The translations under genes were made by a program, and so were the position numbers. From Antedon mediterranea (Eukaryota > Echinodermata > Crinoidea > Comatulida > Antedonidae), in assembly GCF_964355755.1 (NCBI RefSeq), contig NC_092679.1:8246001-8310000 (forward strand): a DNA stretch of 64,000 bases, in the 5' to 3' direction. Below the pieces are notes generated by a model that was given only the letters and a program-made list of their open reading frames with translations, ran no database searches and had not been told where the DNA came from. The stretch's first letter is position 1. Each line of letters opens with the position of its first letter. Shown piece by piece: positions 17,601-31,775 of this stretch.

Positions 17601-20534
17601 GAACAGGTGGGGATGACCGAAACTACATCTGAAAACTGCCACTCAGGGATTATGGGTTGGTAGTGATGGCTAACATAATTTGTACTAGAAACGTCTTAAA
17701 CACATCACCCAGTATCTGGGGTGTGTTGGGAGGGAGGAAGAGCGGGGCAGAAATACTGGCGTAATGAAGTATAACATGATTGGAATTGTACTAGGAAAAG
17801 TTACTACATTTGAACTGTCCATGGGAGGAGTTATGTTAATTTTTTTGGCTGGAATGGTGATAGGACAAAGAAGGCTGGGCCGCAGTATCTAAATTAGATA
17901 TTTTAATTATCAGCCAATATGACACCTATTCATTTACACAGTTTACAACGTACTTAAAACATAGGCCTATCATAGCTATGTATACCCCTACCCCTAAAGT
18001 TCAATTGAAATTTGTCCTCGGAAGAATTTGTTTTTAAAAAAGAGTGTGGTGTGTTATTGAAGAGAGGTGGAGGTTGGTGAGTATAGGGGGTCGGGTCGGG
18101 TGTTATGTACTGAGAAGGCTTTAAACTAATGTTGAAGCCCGCCCTGGGGCGGGTATAATTGCTAGTATTATTACACTACCATTGGGGTCCATGTGAAAAT
18201 ACCGTGCAACATATTGTGATTCAAGCAAGTTTAGAAAATGTGTTCACCTCGAACACACATATTATTTATTATTTTTACATATTAACAATTTATTCTTCAA
18301 GATTTTTTTTTTTTTTTACAGAATTAGAAACTGAACCAAGTAATTCAGCAAATACAACATCCATTAGAGTTGATTCAGAAGCAAGCGACAGCAGTGATTC
18401 TGAATCATTACTCACTTCTAAGATTTCATCAACATCATCATCAACTGAGAACAGTGATGTTAGTGATACTACCTCCATTCAACCAATATTTTTTAGGTGA
18501 GTTTACAGTTGCATTGTACCCAATTTGTTTAAGGTTGAATTTGTATAATAATCATGTAAAAAGCAATGGGATCATTTGTTATTTGTTAACAGATCTTTAG
18601 AATTTTCTCCAGCTGTACCAATAAGATTGGACTATCAAGGCAAAAGAGTCACTATGGAACAGGTTTGTTAACTATTAAGCAATTTGTATAGTATGTCCTG
18701 CATTAATAATAAATAGTGAGTATTGAATTGTATTTATAGGATCGAATAGTGAATATTGATTTTTATTATAGGGAACATTTATTGGAATTCTAGTTGGTCT
18801 TGCTCAGTTGAACTGTTCAGAGTTGACTTTAAAAAGGATACACTATCGTCATGGGTAAGCGTAAATTGTATACAATTTGAAGTATAGCTAGTTTTTTAGT
18901 TATCCGCATTGTATGACATCATCAAACAATTTTGTTTTCTGTATTATTGTTCTTTCTTTCCACTGATTTTTGTGCATCGCGTTTCTCTAAAACGTGTAAA
19001 CATAACATTTCATAACTTTGTCAATATATCGACATTTACGTGAAGTTGTGCACCTCCTGACAATATAATACTGTAGTTAAACATCTCATATATATTGTTA
19101 TTACTTGTGCACAGCTTACTTGGTGTTGATAAACTAGTTTTACACATGATCAATGAATGGGCCCACGATATTAAAAAGACACAACTTCCAAGTATCCTAG
19201 GTGGAGTTGGACCAATGCATTCATTTGTTCAACTTGGTAAGTATGTACTTTATTCACATCGATTCTCAATATTTATTTTTTCGTCTTTATTTTATTGAAT
19301 TGTATGGTTCTAATTATCTATCTAATCTAATAATTCATAAAATTTACTTTGATTTTGTTTTCTAGTTCAAGGTATTGTTGATCTTGTACGCATGCCAATT
19401 GAACAATACAAGAAAGATGGACGTATAATGCGAGGTTTGCAACGCGGTGCTAACTCCTTTGGAACAAGTACAGCAATGGCTGCTGTTGAGCTCACAAATA
19501 AATGTGTCCAGGCTTTACAGGTAAAGTTTCCTTTATTTAAATTAATTCAGAATTTTTTATCTTTCTAAAGTAAATGAGAATATAAAATAAATCCAAAGGC
19601 AAATTAGAAAATGACAAAATAGAATATGCAAAAAGCTAAACCAAAACGATAAAGTAAAACAGCCAGAAAAATTAGCAGAGCTTTTAGGCAACACTAGCCC
19701 TTCATAAGTGCAAGTGAAAATATAAAATAATATATAATCATGTGTATACCTATTATTTATATAAACAATTAGAAGTATAGTGGGGATATAAGCTGTACAG
19801 TGTCAAGGAAAAGGGATAATATAAATTAAAAGTATTAACATTTTGTCACAGAGTGTAGCTGAAATGACATATGATATGGTATCTCCTGGTCCCAGTGTTG
19901 TGTCCCATAGAGCAATAACAGTAAACAATGGTACTCAATACCGAATGGCTAAGCAACCAGCAGACCTCAGAGAAGGAGTCACAAATGCAATGAATGTTGT
20001 TAGACAAGTAAGCAGTAACAGTTGCATGAATACTTTTATTTTAAAAAAAAATCAATAATTTCAATTCAACATTTAAAAAAAGTATTAATTCTTTTTAAGA
20101 TCACACTATTGGAAACATTAAAAAAATTACCAGCAAAGCATAAGAACAGTTTTTAATCATAAAACACTCTTTAAATAACTCTACTGTTTCTTTATAACTG
20201 TGTTTAATTAGACCATCTCTTAAATCCTGGACACACTGTAATAGTAACGTTTCAGAACCTATACTGGAAATTTATATTTGAATTTTAATTTATTCATTAG
20301 GGTCTTGAAAATACTGCTTCAACACTTGTCCAAGTGGCAAAAGAGGAACATTCTCACAAAGGTGTATCAGGTGCTGTTGGTGGTGTCCTTCGCCAGGTAC
20401 CCCCGACAATGATTAAGCCATTGATCCTTGCAACTGAGGCAACATCAAATGTTCTTGGTGGTATGCGAAATCAAATGCAGCCAGATGCTAGGAAAGAAGA
20501 TGCCGAAAAATGGAAAACACAAGCAACAACCTAG
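5608..20534 (+). CDS. ATG2: ATG2 autophagy lipid-transfer protein, C-terminal ~1,570 residues (5' exons outside window)
   Basis: ATG2 bridges the ER to the edge of the phagophore and moves lipids into it, working with WIPI proteins and ATG9. I read 30 in-phase exons: 5608-5854, 5945-6131, 6416-6526, 6889-7071, 8030-8130, 8227-8399, 8504-8606, 8816-8981, 9196-9338, 9652-9812, 9906-10072, 10168-10494, 10769-11049, 11285-11355, 13563-13630, 13870-14022, 14618-14759, 14860-15062, 15160-15364, 15903-15945, 16109-16238, 16502-16675, 16882-17056, 18322-18496, 18593-18662, 18772-18854, 19115-19236, 19366-19520, 19852-20007, 20301-20534 (stop TAG). All donors are GT and acceptors AG. Family hallmarks include NIDQDALFFLRDFF, the C-terminal block PIEQYKKDGRIMRGLQRGA, and PLILATEATSNVLGGMRNQ near the end. 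An acidic FCIL motif (15027-15038) fits the known GABARAP-binding site, and DHFKRP (15220-15237) aligns with the WIPI4-binding YF site. The chorein N-domain is missing, and about 4.7 kb of coding sequence is present. Vertebrates have two paralogues; this could correspond to either ATG2A or ATG2B. Confidence 0.95.
6807..6900 (+). repeat. 47-bp tandem duplication containing an ATG2 3' splice site
   Basis: Two adjacent near-identical 47-bp copies (6807-6853 and 6854-6900) each contain ttttgccattgcag followed by ACCA(C/T)AGGACAT. The acceptors therefore fall at 6841 and 6888. Only the downstream one (exon from 6889) keeps the ATG2 frame. Use of the upstream one adds 47 bases and reaches a TAG at 6893-6895. 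Confidence 0.9.
7137..7815. repeat. 17-21-bp minisatellite in ATG2 intron
   Basis: The unit GGCGGGTAGTTGTCCTA is repeated roughly 35 times with length variants that add GGTG or GGCG. It degenerates at the right into a shorter GGTAGTTGTCCGGGT unit. It lies between ATG2 exons ending 7071 and starting 8030, followed by an (AT)n run near 7840. No coding role is seen. Confidence 0.95.
11152..11220. repeat. perfect 69-bp palindrome in ATG2 intron
   Basis: The arms are 34 bp each (CAAAACAAGATTTTTG... and its exact reverse complement) around a single central T. The sequence could form a long hairpin in the transcript. It is probably a minimal foldback or MITE remnant. Confidence 0.95.
11570..11774. 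repeat. 26-bp minisatellite, left half
   Basis: The unit GGTTTTAACTGTATGCAGTAGTGGGA is repeated about eight times. It is the left part of an array whose right part resumes at 13170 after a transposon insertion. Confidence 0.9.
11779..13169. mobile_element. 1.39-kb non-autonomous DNA transposon with TTAA target duplication
   Basis: TTAA at 11775-11778 and 13170-13173 flanks an element starting AGTGGAGCTACAC and ending GTGGAGCTCCACT, so the terminal inverted repeats match at 12 of 13 bases. Both TTAA copies belong to minisatellite units, so excision would rejoin one continuous array. TTAA duplication is typical of the piggyBac and Kolobok superfamilies. No transposase is present. The interior holds clustered TAGGCCTAG words near 12225-12290 and 12565-12590. 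Confidence 0.85.
13170..13530. repeat. 26-bp minisatellite, right half
   Basis: The array resumes directly after the TTAA element and continues for about 14 units of the same (TTAACTGTATGCAGTAGTGG) sequence. Late units alternate 'attaactgtatgcag' and 'ttaattgtatgtag'. It ends 30 bp before the ATG2 exon at 13563. Confidence 0.9.
17075..18165 (+). mobile_element. non-autonomous Helitron in ATG2 intron
   Basis: The element begins TCTATATTAACTATATTATA directly after a host A (17074). It ends with the GC hairpin CCCGCCctgGGGCGGG, then TATAATTG and CTAG (18162-18165), directly before a host T. This is the canonical Helitron structure: 5'-TC, a 3' hairpin about 10 bp upstream of CTRR, and insertion between A and T without target duplication. 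Inside, a unit beginning 'atcaaaatgaccgcaattgtacc' recurs in degenerate form (near 17180, 17395 and 17550). No Rep/helicase is encoded. It is inserted between the ATG2 exons ending 17056 and starting 18322. Confidence 0.85.
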
Positions 20535-21791: not shown

Positions 21792-24700
21792 TCATTGCTT
21801 TGTGGGTGGCGTCTCACTTTGATCTGATAATCCACTAGATTCTTTTCGTCGCGGTGACCATTCTCGTTTAACATCGGATTCTCTTCTGCGAGCTAATAGT
21901 GTTTTTGTCAAACTACCAATATTCATCCGTTGAGGTGGAACTTTGTCTTTAGGAGCAAGTTCAGCAAGTTGTGCTTCGGCATCGAGCATGCACCAATCGG
22001 GTACACGTCCTGTCTCACGATAATGCTCTTTACTAAGTGATCTGTAACTTAAAACTTCAAGACTTCCTAAAATTGCACCTATTAAAAACAAGTAATATAA
22101 ATTAATTACATGGTCTCTCTAAAAATACATGTATGGTTTAAGCAAACCCAAATAACTTAATTAAGTTTGTATTGTAGTTCCATACTTTAGGATAACAATA
22201 ATCTATATGAGCATTTGCTAATTAACTTACCACCTAGCCAAGCTGTGTAGTTAGGCTGCGATGGAGGACTGTGCATCTTAAAGTTTCTGAAAGCTAGTTT
22301 TTGCCTGTACTTGGGTCTTTCAAGTAAGTTTTTTAGCTCCGACATGAGCCTGTCCTTAAACCCTGGTAGCATTGTTGTACCTCCAACACAAACAAGGTTG
22401 TGTGCCAGTGTTTTACGAAAGTCAATAGGACACTAAATATAAAATCAATAAAATATTGTTGATTACTATCGGGAAAAAAAAGCTTTATAATACTGTATAT
22501 AAATCATCCCTTGGCCTATAAATTGGAGTAAGAATATACACAAACCTGAATTATTGAGTCCAGAATCAGTGTCGCAACAGACTTTTCCTCATTATCTTGT
22601 TCAAACAGAACTTCACAAACAATTTCTCTGATTTGACCATCTATGGCTAATATCCTTCCCCCATCTAAAGGATATTCAACAGCTGGGGGAGGGGGTGGCC
22701 TCTGAATATTTTCACATAAAAACAGGAATAAAATTAAAATATATTTACACAATAAAAGCATATCACAAAATGTTTTAAAATAATCAATAATAAGATCTTC
22801 TCTGAACGTTAATTACAGTCAATCAAAATTTACCTTAACTGCACTGCCATCTAAAAGAGATTCTTTAATTTTAGCAGATCTTTGAAAATTGCATACAAAA
22901 CAAGTTTTAACTGAAAAAGAATACATCGCAAAAATATATTACACACTTCTGTACAGAAATAAAACATTTCATCATAATACCATTCAATAATGTTGCATTT
23001 TGAGTTGTAAATGCTTTGTGTTAGGTACAGTACCAACCATATACCATACCTACACACAGACAAAACGTGGTTAATTAGGTAACAATAGGACAGCCCACAT
23101 TCACTCAACCATTGACTGTCTAATGGGCTTAGTGGTATTCACTTGGCTAATTTCCCTAGGTGCCCTGAATGGACAGTCACTTTTATATAGCCTACTCATT
23201 TTTGTATGTTATTTCCTACCATAGTCATGCTTTAATACTTAATATCACTACAATATTTCTAATAATTCAATAAAATTATATATAACTATACAGTACTATA
23301 AATAAATCAAGAAAAAGTGAAGACATGTTTATTTTTTGCATAATATGGATGTATTTTCTTTACTGTAAAAAATTTATTTATTTATTTATTCAAGATACAA
23401 CAGTGTATCAAGAAAAAACACCAATACAGAATCGCCATAAAATATACATTAGATTTACATAAAAAAGAACAAGGAAAACAAACAGATTTATATATTGTTA
23501 AAAATGACATTAAAGACAGAAGTATTACAACTAAAATATCATAAAGTAAAGTTCCTACTTTTAGCAGGAAGTAGCTAGTAGTAGTTACGTAATCGGCCTC
23601 TCGTGGAATATTGACACATGCTTTTTTTCCGAATATTTTCCGCAGACAGTACAAGGGTAGATGATTTCTGGTATGCCTGTTGCACATAGAGTATCACGGT
23701 GTGACATCACAACGATAGAGGCGCTGCATGATTGCTAGACAACCAAAAAATGCGTTCAGCGCTACTATGTTGATAAACAGTAAAGATCTGTATTTCTATC
23801 AAATTATGTATCTTAGCTTGATTTTTTTTTAACTTAAACTGTAGTTGAAGAATAAATAGATTATTAAAAACAGATATTTAGTGATCTTTTGAAATTTTAG
23901 TTTGTTTTTATTGAAAATTATTAAGTTTTAAAATGACTACTTCAATAAGCCTATTCCAAACCATTGGTGATCTTGGAGTTACTCAGGCAGGCTGAACCAC
24001 GCAGCGCCACCTACAGTTGTGACGTCAACACCGTGATACTCTATATTGAGTTTATTTAATTTTCAGAGTGAATTTTTAAATAGATACCTTTGATATCTTC
24101 TAAAACTGCTTCTTGTACATGTCCCATTATAGAGGATAGTGGCTTCTCTTCTACAGAATGCCCTCTGACCATTCCATTTTCCAAAAGGTGTGCTTCTAAT
24201 CGCCTAGGAAATAAAATATAGGTAGTTGTTTTGCAAAATAAATATCAATGAAAGATAATGTTTATGGGTCTATGTCTTTAAAAATAATGTTGAACCATTT
24301 AATATGAATTAGATTTTTAAAATAGTAACTTACTTATAAATAGCACATCCTGCAAGAGGTATACCTTGCCATCCTTTTAAAATCGGTGTGCATTCACAAA
24401 CTTATAAATAAAATGTTAAAGAAGTGTTTTTATCAGTCAATTTATTGATTACAATAACATAAATTAATAACTTGCTTTTTAATAAAACCAGGAACTTGTT
24501 TATACTCCTGGATGTATTTAGATAAAGAAGACAATATGCAAACTCCTTAGAATTAAAAAAGGATATTGGAAGGACAAGAGTTTCTTTGTATCCACAATCT
24601 ATAACCAGAGCTGTGTTGATTCCTAAAGTGAATAACACCAAAAGATGACTAGGTGCATACAAGATGGAAGGTACCTATGGATGTAAAAAGAAAATCAATA

Positions 24701-27700
24701 TATTGTATATTTATTTTCAATAATTCTCTCCTAATTCATAACTAACATTTACTGTCTCAATAATATGTTAATATATACCTGTGGTCACTAAGTTAATTTG
24801 CCATTGGACTAGAATAATTAAAGCCCCATTCCCTACGTTTTTTAGATCTAATTTAAGATCACAAACTATATTTAATGTAAAAATAATACTATATGGTCCT
24901 ATTGCGATAACTTTTTTCGTCTTTAAACGGTTAAAAATGTGAAAAATAAATCGATTTTAATAATTATAGCGGCCCGCTATAAATCCCAAAATGCATTGCG
25001 CGCGGATTGATATTGTTGTTTTTCACCTGTAATTCGCCCACTTTTCGATCGATCGTGAAGCCAAAACAAATGGAAGACTCCTAACTTTTCAGCGAAAATA
25101 CTGGGTTTTCCCCAATTTGTATCAACGGAGTCTGGCAAAAATAGAAAGACAATTAATGCAGCAACTATACAACGTCAGACTAGGTATATAGCTAGCGTAC
25201 GATGTTCGTACGTTACCGATGTTTACCAGCTAGGCCTACAAAACTAAGCCTAGCTAGGCTAGGCCTGAGACCGTCCACGAGAGGTCGATCGCCGCGAGCT
25301 ACTTAGGTAGTGCATTGTTTCTCACTTTTTATCATAATTTACCATAAAACGTACATTTAAGACAAGGAATGACATGGTTTAATGTTTTTAAAGTGATATA
25401 TATGTATTATTTTCCAAAAAACGTCCAAAATTGCAGGGAAGGGGTCTTTAATTGAATGAATTGTTAACTAAAAAACGCCCCAAAATCGAAGAGTGGGCAT
25501 GTCCGACCTGCACCAATGACGTACATTTTACAAAGTATTAGAATGGTAATTGGTGAACCAAATTAGATTGCAATGATTATAGGGGGTTATAGGGTAGAAT
25601 TACTAATGAGTTGTACAGGAAAAGAAGTATAATGTTGCAGAAATGTAAATTTCAGTATCTATATATAAATTTACGTAAGGACAAAATTCGGTAAATCGCG
25701 AGTTATTTCTAGAATGTTTACTCGATGCATGGATTAAAGAATAGAAGGATATGCATCGACGGTGACATCAAACGATTTTACAACGCGCTTGCCTATACTA
25801 AAGCACTGCTGCCAATCAAACAAACACGCTCATTGAACTCTGTGTCTCTAACCGCGGCCCTCTGTAAAACGCTGCGAATCAACTGTTACATTTTTTAGAC
25901 CAAAACGTAACCATGTAGAAATCGTATGCGCAGTGTGAATGTTCTATTGACATGTCTGCGTCGATGATTAATTGACAACAAAAATATATTGCTGAATAAT
26001 TCTGTTTTAGTTTCATCACAATCGGACTACGAAAAGTTCACTTTCTTACGACTGGTAATTTTAAGTAGTTGGTAATATTGATAAAATATGCAATTTTTAT
26101 ATTTGAATTATCATTATTTGCCTGCCATCTTCTGTCATTAAAAATTGCGTTAATCTATAGAGAATATTAAATTATGCATTTGACCATGTATGTTGTTAGC
26201 GTGGCCGGTGTTCACCCATACAACAATCGTGTTTTTAATATATGGCTAAGCAGTGGTTTCTTCATAAATCTCCTTAATTATCGATGTGATTATATTTAAA
26301 TTGTAGTGCCTGGTGATTGGCTAGTGGTTATGTCATCCACATCACATTCAATCACCGGGTCTAATTGAATGAAAACAGCGATCCCTGATCCGGGATTGGC
26401 TGGCTATGTATAGTTGCGATTCGTTACCTAGCGGTCGTTTTGAAAAGTACACGCATGGCAAACTTAATCACGAACAAACGAAGTACTGTACCTATTATTC
26501 ACACAAGAAGTAAGACAACGGTGAGTATATAGATCATGATTACACGTTGTATCTACTACACTTAAGATTAGCCTAGGCCTACCTAGGCAGTATCAATGTC
26601 GGCAAATCATATGGTTTACTAGTAAGCCTAGAAGGCCTAGGCTTAGTATCCTTGCTGATTTTGTAATTTTACATGTAGGCTGAGACAACAAATAGTTATT
26701 GTCTCAGATGTAGGGCTACTACAGGTCATAAACTGCTACTCTGTCATAAAAACATTAGCGTAGATCAATCGCGGCAGAAACCTATACTAATTGCAATTAC
26801 AGCATCTACAATTCTAAGCCAATAACAATATAGTATTTTATCTGGTATATTGATGAAGTAAGCCTACACTAGGGTCTTCACAATAACATACAATGTAATT
26901 GAATAACTGTTTTCAATAAACATTATACTCAGTGGCGTGAGACAGAGGCCAACAAGGTTAAATGTCGTTGCACATGTGCAGTAAACAATATATTAGGCAC
27001 GCGACCGTTTCGTTGTTACCATGCGGTTAATTAAACTGTAACATTGTGGGCGGTCCGCGCTCTGTCGGCGAGAGTCAAGGAACCCTTGATCTCAAGTCGA
27101 TGCATATCCTTCTATTCTTTAATCCATGCTCGATGGTATATAAAGTTGGTTAGAATCTCGGTACTGATTTAAACCACCAGATGTAACCCTGTTTACTAAT
27201 TAAATTGAGTTAGATAATTAGTTATTGACATTGACGATTTGCCCCAAATAGGGGTGTTTTCCGACCGTAGTATACACTGTTTAATGGATGTCCTCTTAAA
27301 AAATACCTGCACACAATAATACGAGGATGCTTCGCATTTTCCTATCTCCTCCTACGATAATTGTTTTTAATAGCTGAAAACCGGTTGAACAACTCGAGTA
27401 CAGTATCATAATGTTGAAGCCAGGCCGATTTTCTTAAAAAAATACTATTTTGATAGATTTAATATACGTTTATACAAATGTATTGATTTGCGATGAATGG
27501 AACATTCCAATCTCTTAGGCCCTGTTCAGACCCATGGCGTTAGACCGTTTTAGCGTACGACGCTAAAAGAATGTGTGTCTGAACAGTTGGGGATTAGCGT
27601 ACAACGCGTCGTACAACGGTTATAGCGTTGTAGTGGAAAACGGTTGATAGTACCGTTTTAGCGTACGACGCTACTGTAAGTCAACGTTGTATCCAATCAG

Positions 27701-30700
27701 AACGTTTCCTGTTATGACGCGATACAAGGTTTGACCTAGGCTGACATCTTGTATCGTCAATGTGTGAGATGTATTTCAATAACAAAAAGGCCAGAATAAA
27801 TAAGGCCTAACTACACTACAAATACAACTGTTACAAAGGCTACAAAACTATCAACTGATTACCATTATATTTTCTAACAAATGACATAAATACATGCACC
27901 TTGTATTTAAACATAGGGACTACGATCCCATCCGCTTTTAGGCCTAGCTAGGCCTAGAGCCATTCAGGGGCGCAGCCAGCAAAGAATTAAAGGGGGGGTC
28001 AACCAATATGTGGCTGGCTGGGGTCCAGGGGGCGAATCCCCCTGGAAGCTTTGGCGGTCTAGGGCAATCTAGATCATTTGAATCGGTTTACGCACACACA
28101 AATATGACAATGTTAACACTAATAAACTGAAACAAAGAAAACAAAAAACAACTCTCATTTTCATTACAGAACATTTTTATATTCCAGGCTGCCACAGACA
28201 AACACTTTTTTTCTTGCTTGTTTGTTGATTTGTGTAGAGAGGCTGTAAACTCAGAGGAGAAATTATTTGAATTCCTCCCTTTTCACCAATACAAAAGTTG
28301 CATGAAATGAACGTAGAGATGCAAAAGTTTGAAAAAAGAAATTAGAATGATAGCATGGAGGGAGTGATATTATTAAATGAGAACCGTAAGGGGAGAGTTC
28401 ATACACTGTGCAAGTCCAAGAAGCTATCTTGGCTCCGTGTGTATGTGAGACGCTTATCATACCCAGTACATACAATATTTTGTTTAAAAATATACCTATT
28501 TTGTTCGAATGTATAGTATAGGTGATAGCTTATACATAATTGTAATAACTAACTTCTAAATTATTATCATACATTTTACGTTAGTTACTATAACGGCGCT
28601 CTTGACATCGCGTGATGCATCTTTAAACATAAGTTTGGAACATACATTCTTCTTGGCTTGGAGACAGAATTCGCGAATGACATTCTCTGTATTAATGTTC
28701 ATGTTAAAGTGTATGTTCATGAGGCACAATCCCGAAAGCTGCTCATAAGACATGTGATTTCCCAAACAGGTTTTCGTTCTCCATAAAGTCGAAAAACTCC
28801 GCTCAGCTTCAGCAGACGTTACGGGCATAGGCCTACGCGATTAGAAGAAGTGCACGCACATTCGGGAACATATCTGGATCCGCTAATTTTACACAGTCGC
28901 TTCCATCACTGAAGCTCGGAATGAAGATGTTCGTGTCTTGGCAGATCATCGTACCAAATTCAAGTTCCTTGAAGACTTCTTCAACATTACACTTCACTAT
29001 AGACTCTGGTGCTACGCCAAATATTTTAAAGCATGGCCTGTTATCGGCAGAAAAACGGGTTTTTAACTCGGTTTGTAATCAAGAAGTTGATTTGGTAATA
29101 CTGCTCGGTAGTAATCTTCCACAGTATCTCCAGGATTATTTGATCTGTATTGTTGTCTCATGTTTTTATTTATTTTTTCTAAAAAAAGGGGGGGGGGGGT
29201 CAACACCCCCGTGACCCCCCCCACCCCCACTGGCTGCGCCCCTGCCATTCACGCATTTCATTCAAGCTAAAAACTAGCGTGGGACATCAAGTCACTCATT
29301 CATACAAGGCAGACTAGACTGGACAAGTTTAATGCTGAAAAACCCCTAACTCCTAACCATGGAGGTATAATCCTAACAAATTCAGTAAACAAACAAGGGG
29401 AGCTGTGTCCCTTTTATTAGCAAGTTAAGGGTTATTTTCAACCGACTGGAACAAAGAATATATATCTTTGACTGGACTGGATAGACTAATCACAATCAAT
29501 TTTTCCTTCATCATTAGGAGGCCTGCTTTATTTTCGTAACACAAGAGCCTGGGGAAAATGTTTTTTAATACAAAATAAAAACAATAGAAACAGAAATTTG
29601 GCTTTACTATATTTTTCTTAAATAAATTCTGAGGTATGTTTTATTTACGGCAAATTTTGTCATAATTGTAGGGCTGAGATCTAGGCCTATATACAGTGGA
29701 AATAATTATGAAAACACGTGGGTAAGAGCACATGAATATGCAACTAGAAACAACCTGAATGACGTACTTCCGTTGTAACGATAATCGTACGCTATAGGTC
29801 TGAACACCTCGTTTTTTTCTCTGCGGTTTGTAACGTGACCTTGCTAGTAACGTTGTACGCTAAAACGGTCTAACGCCATGGGTCTGAACATAGCCTCAGA
29901 CTCCCAGTTTGTAGGTAAATTTATGAGCCCTCCATGGTTTAACACAAGTAGGTAAATTTATGGGCCCTTTGAGAATAAACTTAACACTGAGATATGGCAT
30001 TGCAATACTTTGACAATATTGTAAATACTGAACGTAATAACTATTTTTGGTCGCCATTTGAATCGAAATTTTCTTACTGTGAATGTGGTTACTGTTTATT
30101 GTATTAATTAGTAATTATAAAAAATATAAACGTTGTAGTGGTGTATCGTTACATGTACTTTACTATTTCAATCGACTTAACAGGGACAGTTTTAGATTTT
30201 TGGACTCATTTTAAGACAAGTTTCTCCTTCGGAAGTAGGCCTATTTCCCAGTGTGCTAATTTTAGTTGACTACATTAATCATCGTGTCTATTTATTCGTT
30301 TCTGAAAACGACGATGTATTTGTACTCCTGTGGTACGTACATTTGAAATCGCCAGTTTTTTTAAGCTGAAATTACTGTGTATTCGAGAACCATCTGTGGA
30401 CACGACCTAGATGGTACGCGAGCGTGCCATCTAGTATTGATAATTCCTATAAGAAATTAATTTATGTATTGGCATTTATAAAAAATATTACCTCATAGTG
30501 CTTGAATAACACTTTTGCAAGAGTTTCCCTAAATGAAGAGGGACATAAAAACGACTCACAGATTATCACTCTACGGTCACGTGTGTTAACAAGCAAATGT
30601 CTGCAAAAAACAACAAAAACAACATACTTTAATAGATCATGTCACACACCAATAACAATAAAACATGATAGTCAAATTTCACATTGTTGGAATTCATTAC

Positions 30701-31775
30701 CTGAAATAAATGACATGAAGAAAATCAATAAGTGTATCATAAAGTTCATCATCTTCAGTTTGCTCGAACACTTTGATTACTTTATTGGTCTTTGTACATT
30801 TTACTTCACTTCTTATTATAGCCCTTGGTTGGCATTCTCCTGCAAATCCTACTCTAAAAAAAAAAAATTGTTTGTAAGAACAATCTACAGATGTGAAGGA
30901 TAAATGACCAAACACACTTATTATATATCACTTCTACAATGCTAAATAAAAGCAGCATCATTGATTTCAGTGTTTCAGTATTATTATTTTATCAATTTGC
31001 TTTGTTTGCACTTTTTGCATCAATCCGAGTTTGACAGATTAGGTTTTGCCGAGTTGACTTGAGGCTGACTTGACATGGGGCCGATTTCACATTGGCCAAG
31101 ATGATTTAGGGCCGACTTGGATCGAATTCGTTCAGTCAGCATCAACAAAAATTAAATCAGAGAATCAATACGAAGATAAGATTATTATATTAAGAGTAAT
31201 AATGTTATTGCCTAGGCAGTAAAAATAGTAGGTCCAGTCTAGGCCTACTAGATGGTAGGGTTAATTTAAATAAGGTGATTCTGTATATTTATTATTATTA
31301 TTTCTTTTCATATCCATGAGGACCGAAGCTACCATTTTACCCTCTCTTCCCAGGTCCTACTTTACGTTACGAGGACTGGCCGGCGCCGACTGGCCTACCT
31401 TTCGCCTAAAAGACCAGCCTAGCTAGCCCATTTCCATAGGCCAGGCCTACTAGGCCTAGCCTATCTATATACTTTCTAGGCCCTAGGCCTACCTGTCGAT
31501 CGGCCCTAGGCCTACCTGTCGATCGGCCCTAGGCCTACCTGTCGATCGGCCCTAGGCCTAGATAGTTCCCAGTAGTAGGCCTAGCCTAGGCCTAGTACAG
31601 TAGAAACAATCAATGACGTATTTATTGACTAATTGGTACCACATCAACTTCTAGCCTAATATAATTATGATTATCATATTAATTATATTTATAAGTACTT
31701 TGTATAAACGGTCCCTAAATCAAATATAACTGCTGTTTTTTCTACAGCAGCTGTTAATCCTTCATATAGAGGCAT
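21792..31775 (-). CDS. ACTR10: ACTR10 (Arp11), actin-related pointed-end subunit of dynactin
   Basis: Arp11 caps the pointed end of the Arp1 filament in dynactin and helps cargo binding by dynein. Ten exons, in transcript order on the minus strand, give a complete 450-residue protein: 31775-31699, 30853-30701, 30600-30492, 24674-24567, 24401-24334, 24203-24088, 22910-22834, 22701-22546, 22432-22231, 22078-21792. The start was chosen at MPLYEG in exon 1, which matches the family N-terminus. Later hallmarks are [65 protein letters not shown] and TTMLPGF. Phases add up through all exons. The usual length is about 417 residues; this copy has a longer basic C-terminal tail ([20 protein letters not shown]). 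The junction between exons 4 and 5 looks U12-type with AT-AA ends. Intron 3 (24675-30491) is filled with transposons. Confidence 0.95.
23371..23687 (-). mobile_element. probable 3' end of a truncated LINE or SINE
   Basis: Read on the minus strand, this T-rich sequence ends in TGTATCTTGAATAAATAAATAAATAA, a tail typical of L2/CR1-like retroelements. A 101-residue ORF covers it, but its second half is low-complexity and unlikely to be functional. It lies in an ACTR10 intron, next to a TA-flanked MITE. Confidence 0.4.
23689..24041. mobile_element. 353-bp MITE with TA duplication
   Basis: TA dinucleotides at 23687-23688 and 24042-24043 flank inverted ends GAGTATCACGGTGT...ACACCGTGATACTC. The similarity continues inwards imperfectly (tgacatcacaac / gttgtgacgtca, gcgctgc / gcagcgc). 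TA duplication suggests Tc1/mariner-type mobilisation. It sits in the ACTR10 intron before the exon at 24088. Confidence 0.75.
24402..24566 (-). other. ACTR10 intron 4, U12-type with apparent AT-AA termini
   Basis: On the minus strand the intron starts ATATCCTTTTTT, an exact U12 5' splice-site consensus, directly after the codons for LVLP. Near its 3' end is TTCTTTAAC (8 of 9 to the U12 branch-point consensus TTCCTTAAC), followed by ATTTTATTTATAA and then GTT TGT GAA. Frame and homology require the exon to start with GTT (aligned to Ile-Tyr-Glu in human ACTR10). The nearest AG is one base further downstream; using it breaks the frame and gives an early stop. Confidence 0.65.
24822..25447. mobile_element. 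626-bp TTAA-flanked MITE
   Basis: TTAA at 24818-24821 and 25448-25451 flanks an element with inverted ends AGCCCCATTCCCT / AGGGAAGGGGTCT (11 of 13 matching). The interior has TAGGCCTA words and no transposase. Like the element at 11779 it starts with AG next to TTAA. It lies in ACTR10 intron 3. Confidence 0.75.
25727..27129. repeat. pair of perfect 34-bp inverted repeats 1.3 kb apart
   Basis: The sequence gcatggattaaagaatagaa... at 25727-25760 reappears as its exact reverse complement at 27096-27129. Each copy can also fold on itself (CGATGCAT...ATGCATCG). I see no clear target duplication and no long ORF between them. It is probably an unclassified element in ACTR10 intron 3. Confidence 0.6.
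27965..29244 (-). mobile_element. hAT-like transposon, internally deleted, nested in the 27518-29895 element
   Basis: The inverted ends are CAGGGGCGCAGCCAG and CTGGCTGCGCCCCTG, followed inwards by G-rich / C-rich tracts. CCATT directly abuts both ends, and the longer string GCCATTCA occurs at both edges (27959-27966, 29244-29251) overlapping the termini. The duplication is therefore most simply 5 bp. It carries decayed hAT transposase sequence on the minus strand. Confidence 0.75.
28556..28828 (-). pseudogene. hAT transposase C-terminal dimerisation domain fragment
   Basis: The frame contains [20 protein letters not shown] followed by [12 protein letters not shown], the conserved hAT C-terminal signature of the ZMYM1-like group. 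Sequence further upstream on the same strand (up to about 29060) still reads as related protein but is interrupted by stops. It lacks the catalytic core and N-terminal zinc finger, so it cannot encode an active enzyme. Confidence 0.85.
31475..31565. repeat. 23-bp tandem repeat in ACTR10 intron 1
   Basis: The unit CCCTAGGCCTACCTGTCGATCGG starts at 31481, 31504 and 31527, with a partial copy at 31550. It is embedded in a region very rich in TAGGCCTA. Confidence 0.9.

Follow-up and report, generated by a model that had tools for sequence, protein, structure and literature searches.

The window, a stretch of 64,000 nucleotides from Antedon mediterranea, carries on its minus strand a gene of ten coding exons between positions 31775 and 21792. 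Exons 1 (31699–31775, beginning MPLYEGL), 2 (30701–30853), and 3 (30492–30600) were located by tblastn with the N-terminus of the human protein, and their ends were placed by eye. Exons 4 (24567–24674, ending in LVLP), 5 (24334–24401), 6 (24088–24203), 7 (22834–22910), 8 (22546–22701), and 9 (22231–22432) were defined by translation and by alignment to PDB chains. Exon 10, which includes the stop codon (21792–22078), was read from its translation, with the PDB alignment reaching the DWCMLD stretch. Joined together, exons 4–10 encode 337 residues up to the stop codon. When this protein was searched against the PDB, the best four matches were dynactin Arp11/ACTR10 chains (E 1.3e-103 to 5e-103), and the next was an actin (E 2.5e-18). 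Judged by these sequence matches, the gene is ACTR10 (Arp11, of the dynactin pointed end), as the initial annotation had proposed, and not an actin or another Arp. A genome search with the same protein, in which the best candidates were scored, found no second or processed ACTR10 copy. Its 17 matches comprise seven at the ACTR10 locus (60–97% identity) and ten elsewhere (32–39%), and the latter look like other actins.

Coding exons 4 and 5 flank a 165-nt intron that runs, on the minus strand, from the A of ATATCCTTTTTT at 24566 to the second A of ...TTATAA at 24402, the next base being the G at 24401. The minus strand reads CTT GTC CTT CCA / ATATCCTTTTTT ... TTCTTTAAC ATTTTATTTATAA / GTT TGT GAA TGC ACA CCG ATT TTA AAA GGA TGG, where slashes mark the intron limits. 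The 5′ splice site is an exact ATATCCTT (24559–24566), conforming to the U12 donor [A/G]TATCCTT, and begins at a codon boundary, in phase 0. The U12 branch site TTCTTTAAC (24415–24423) is near TTCCTTRAC and one base off TTCCTTAAC; the 13 nt that follow it, ATTTTATTTATAA, lead to the end of the intron. The final two of these 13 nt form the AA terminus (24402–24403), which is overlapped by an AG one base downstream (24401–24402). Counted from the branch site, the AA end is thus at 13 nt and the AG end at 14, and U12 branch sites are usually found about 10–15 nt from the 3′ end. Three claims of the initial annotation are borne out here: the exact U12 donor at the 5′ end, the near-consensus branch site shortly before the 3′ end, and the coordinates 24402–24566, which are exact on the minus strand.

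Taken alone, neither motif is beyond chance in the 64 kb window, where ATATCCTT was seen five times against 3.77 expected and TTCYTTRAC three times against 3.69. The placement of both motifs at the break defined by homology is beyond chance. If the donor is allowed to deviate by 1 nt and the branch site to fall anywhere among 10 nt of offsets, the window expectations give a joint probability of about 2.5e-8; both ranges were set after the site was seen.

The junction was examined by a scan over all pairs of a first intron base between 24600 and 24481 and a last base between 24480 and 24361, with introns of at least 40 nt. The products were scored against a 67-residue ACTR10 stretch from the PDB dynactin match. 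Stop-free products came from 1515 junctions, 39 of which excise exactly 165 nt; among these 39, solely 24566–24402 (AT-AA) has GT-AG, GC-AG, AT-AC, AT-AG, or AT-AA termini. The eight top-scoring junctions all excise 165 nt. Six of them reach 212 points (TA-AG, AT-GT, TC-TT, CC-TT, CT-TG, and TT-GT) and two reach 211 (AA-TA and AT-AA), the seven rivals to AT-AA differing from it in a start shifted upstream by one base or downstream by one to six. When introns of every length are ranked together, no other pair with any of the five termini appears before rank 64, and the one placed there deletes residues.

Excision of the AT-AA intron gives a junction that aligns without a gap to the ACTR10 of solved dynactin (LVLP-I-YEGIPVLNCW). 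If the real donor is combined with the AG, the product becomes LVLPFVNAHRF followed by a stop, that is, it terminates after seven residues, and retention of the intron leads to a stop at its last codon. Both points had been made before, namely that the frame and the ACTR10 alignment put the intron end at AA, and that the AG one base downstream shifts the frame to an early stop. The second is upheld outright, and the first holds in that 24566–24402 is the sole 165-nt junction with one of the five termini, although TA-AG scores one point higher. The TA-AG junction, one base over, yields I after P as in the solved ACTR10 chains (212 versus 211 points), where AT-AA yields V. No other result weighs as much against reading the ends strictly as AT-AA, yet the TA-AG form requires cleavage within the U12 donor, one base in. 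The Pfam Actin matches of the two forms (124.7 bits with V versus 124.1 bits with I) lean slightly toward V but are too close to separate them. From reading frame and homology, AT-AA is most likely the exact junction.

Other ends were considered and rejected. AT-AC ends further down were set aside, as their use would insert or remove residues or disrupt the frame. The 39 junctions of 165 nt also include CT-AC (24550–24386) and AT-AT (24535–24371), termini that are described for some minor introns (PMC2831892, PMC10639083); these two lack a U12 donor at their start and would substitute conserved residues.

The components needed to process such an intron were sought in the genome. All four minor snRNAs are present, with matches above the gathering score for U6atac (136.6 bits), U12 (125.7), U4atac (97.6), and U11, which has two good matches (88.6 and 82.9 bits). 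Rfam re-detects minor snRNAs at all five fetched loci. In the U12 snRNA the stretch GAGUAAGGAA, which pairs with the branch site, is intact. A second, weak U6atac match (33.7 bits, with deletions, at positions 1501–1602 of locus L002) is likely a pseudogene. In addition, the CENATAC family (PF14968) is represented by five matched stretches at one locus (E 1.2e-17 to 3.3e-5). CENATAC is described as promoting AT-AN minor introns in human cells, which depend on it; its loss is reported to affect 92% of A-type versus 24% of G-type minor introns (PMC8280824). The earlier prediction of an active minor spliceosome stands as far as the snRNA genes are concerned, while the word active would go further than the presence of genes, which alone does not show activity.

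As controls from the same genome, A-type U12 introns were chosen in STX6 and PHB2, which a table in PMC2831892 gives as AT-AC introns common to fly and human. In the STX6 family gene (PF09177), the exon end ACA ATT G is followed by the donor ATATCCTTG, and the acceptor reads TTCTTTAAC ATATTTGTTTTAC / GA ATT GTG GAG. This intron ends in AC 13 nt past the branch site, and it shares with ACTR10 both the identical branch-site 9-mer and the 13-nt distance. The second control gene (PF01145) is presumably PHB2, by likeness to the human protein; its donor reads ATG / ATATCCTTT and its acceptor AACCTTAAC ATTGATTTGTAC / CTG GGA GAG, ending in AC 12 nt past the branch site. In both controls, the terminal AC thus lies as far from the branch site as the AA of ACTR10, to within one base; therefore, the ACTR10 AA occupies the usual place of the AC. 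The controls also show that the homology method recovers canonical ends where these are present. No second AA end was found among the two control introns.

We consider that 24566–24402 is a genuine A-type (AT-AN) U12-type intron of ACTR10, cut after AA, with a probability of about 0.88. What the sequence itself shows is the splice signals, the frame, the genes for the minor snRNAs and for CENATAC, and the two control introns. U11 and then U6atac would recognize ATATCCTT, and U12 would pair with the branch site TTCTTTAAC, recognition steps that belong to the established knowledge of the minor spliceosome. The minor spliceosome would then cut after AA, 13 nt past the branch site, and join CCA to GTT. 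The outcome would be an ACTR10 mRNA of full length; the intron is in phase 0. We infer that the AA outcompetes the overlapping AG. The joined sequence predicted under AT-AA is CCA / GTTTGTGAA, and the contrary joins would be CCA / TTTGTGAA and CCAATTTGTGAA.

A related but unlikely arrangement is that both 3′ ends are used, the AA giving the productive mRNA and the AG one base later giving a frameshifted one with an early stop that would presumably undergo nonsense-mediated decay. If both were used, the tandem AAG acceptor would therefore set ACTR10 output. The position of the two ends, at 13 and 14 nt from the branch site, is in keeping with such mixed use, as is the stop seven residues on in the AG product. 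A human ACTR10 AT-AG junction has also been reported among U2/U12-like sites, with GT in other mammals outside some primates, the source leaving class and intron unspecified (PMC4176328). Nevertheless, if the protein is required, AA must account for a good share of the output, and the STX6 and PHB2 introns end 12–13 nt past the branch site. That the acceptor is in addition a regulated switch, in which AA leads to a working ACTR10 mRNA and AG to a decaying one, appears distinctly improbable. If this were true, the supply of dynactin would serve as a readout of how active CENATAC or the minor spliceosome is.

There is a slim chance that a 1-nt assembly error or an allele, with two As in place of three before TATCC, hides an AT-AG U12 intron in phase 1 encoding LVLPICEC. 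The added A would restore both the I of the solved ACTR10 chains and an AG end, with which an A-type donor can be paired. Against this, we judge a consensus error in a run of two to three bases to be unlikely for an 18-contig assembly, and exons 4–10 translate without a stop. Moreover, the V at this position does not lower the Actin match, and the genome search with exons 4–10 found no second gene copy showing another form.

Splicing of the U2 type was assessed through the donors. The scan contains six stop-free GT-AG pairs, from donors 24595, 24532, and 24505, the latter two, inside the intron, scoring −9.5 and −6.3 bits with a donor-scoring matrix. With the same matrix, the other eight ACTR10 donors score 1.9 to 5.6 (five), 1.6 and 1.8 (two), and −2.3 bits (exon 1). 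It is highly improbable that a U2-type GT-AG intron, 24505–24401, is excised with a 20-residue in-frame insertion kept, or that both forms occur as a twintron: the frame is preserved and human ACTR10 appears on a list of twintrons (PMC3564746), but the donor GGAGTATAA is matched or exceeded by 65% of the 3558 GTs on the minus strand, the 61-nt insert (24566–24506) reduces both the alignment (211 to 182) and the Actin match (124.7 to 107.4 bits), and the perfect U12 donor is left unexplained. The U2-type GT-AG reading is rejected because it adds residues.

The ACTR10 intron of Antedon, read as AT-AA, can be compared with three described cases. Within the A-type AT-AA subclass as presented in PMC10639083 and PMC8280824, it shares the ATATCCTT donor, a branch site near the end, AT-AA termini, and a genome with the minor snRNAs and CENATAC. 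No difference can be defined here; an AG overlaps the AA one base downstream and is out of frame. With the U12 intron of vertebrate ACTR10, it shares the gene, the U12 type, and unusual termini in at least one species (PMC3564746, PMC2831892), whereas the Antedon intron ends in AA. Human ACTR10 is given as a U12-intron gene and as a twintron with a U12 variant (PMC3564746); the U12-type intron of zebrafish actr10 is reported with GA-AG ends and its vertebrate orthologues with AT-AC or GT-AG (PMC2831892). The human U2 variant is listed at 219 amino acids (PMC3564746), a length that corresponds to Met199 to 417 in the numbering of the PDB alignment. Its span would fit an intron upstream of residue 199, which is consistent with the same place as in Antedon, although it is no proof. 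Finally, the U12 intron of human and mouse PRMT1 is likewise A-type with an AA 3′ end, but its U12 product reportedly undergoes nonsense-mediated decay (PMC3564746), whereas in Antedon ACTR10 it is the AA product that keeps an open frame.

The weight that the initial annotation gave to an AT-AA intron in ACTR10, as a rare and notable find, was too great. AT-AA is described as the commonest noncanonical terminus of minor introns in animals and plants, and ACTR10 is an established U12-intron gene (PMC10639083, PMC3564746, PMC2831892). The figures in PMC10639083 cap the share of AT-AA among animal minor introns near 1.4%, and therefore a few would be expected in any genome whose minor introns number some hundreds. 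Literature searches on ACTR10 minor or U12 introns and on AT-AA U12-type introns found no report of an AT-AA end in ACTR10. The novelty is small, since both the end type and the minor intron of the host gene are already known. What the intron offers is a clean natural case in which the 3′ end used by the minor spliceosome must be AA despite an overlapping AG one base further on. Such a case would lend itself to testing how the minor spliceosome gauges distance from the branch site and selects the final nucleotide. It is also a warning to annotators, as a gene caller restricted to GT-AG would break the ACTR10 model. Aside from the overlapping AA/AG end and this warning, it is an ordinary minor intron.

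Several further features were seen in and around the gene. Intron 1 contains about three tandem copies, by eye, of a TAGGCCTAGGGCCGATCGACAGG unit at 31480–31560. In intron 6, the ends AGAGTATCACGGTGT...ACACCGTGATACTCT of the segment 23688–24042 suggest, by eye, a short inverted-repeat element, and the repeat finder gave no inverted repeat of at least 18 nt there. Intron 3 carries a perfect inverted repeat of 34 nt, with arms at 25727–25760 and 27096–27129 separated by 1335 nt. Of the five ATATCCTT matches that the window contains, two fall within these arms, and the whole segment (25727–27129) is possibly a DNA-transposon-like insertion. Downstream of the gene, at about 20300–20513 on the plus strand, a peptide translated by eye corresponds to the final positions of the model PF13329 for the autophagy protein ATG2 (E 3.6e-18), and therefore an ATG2 gene and ACTR10 seem to be arranged tail to tail.
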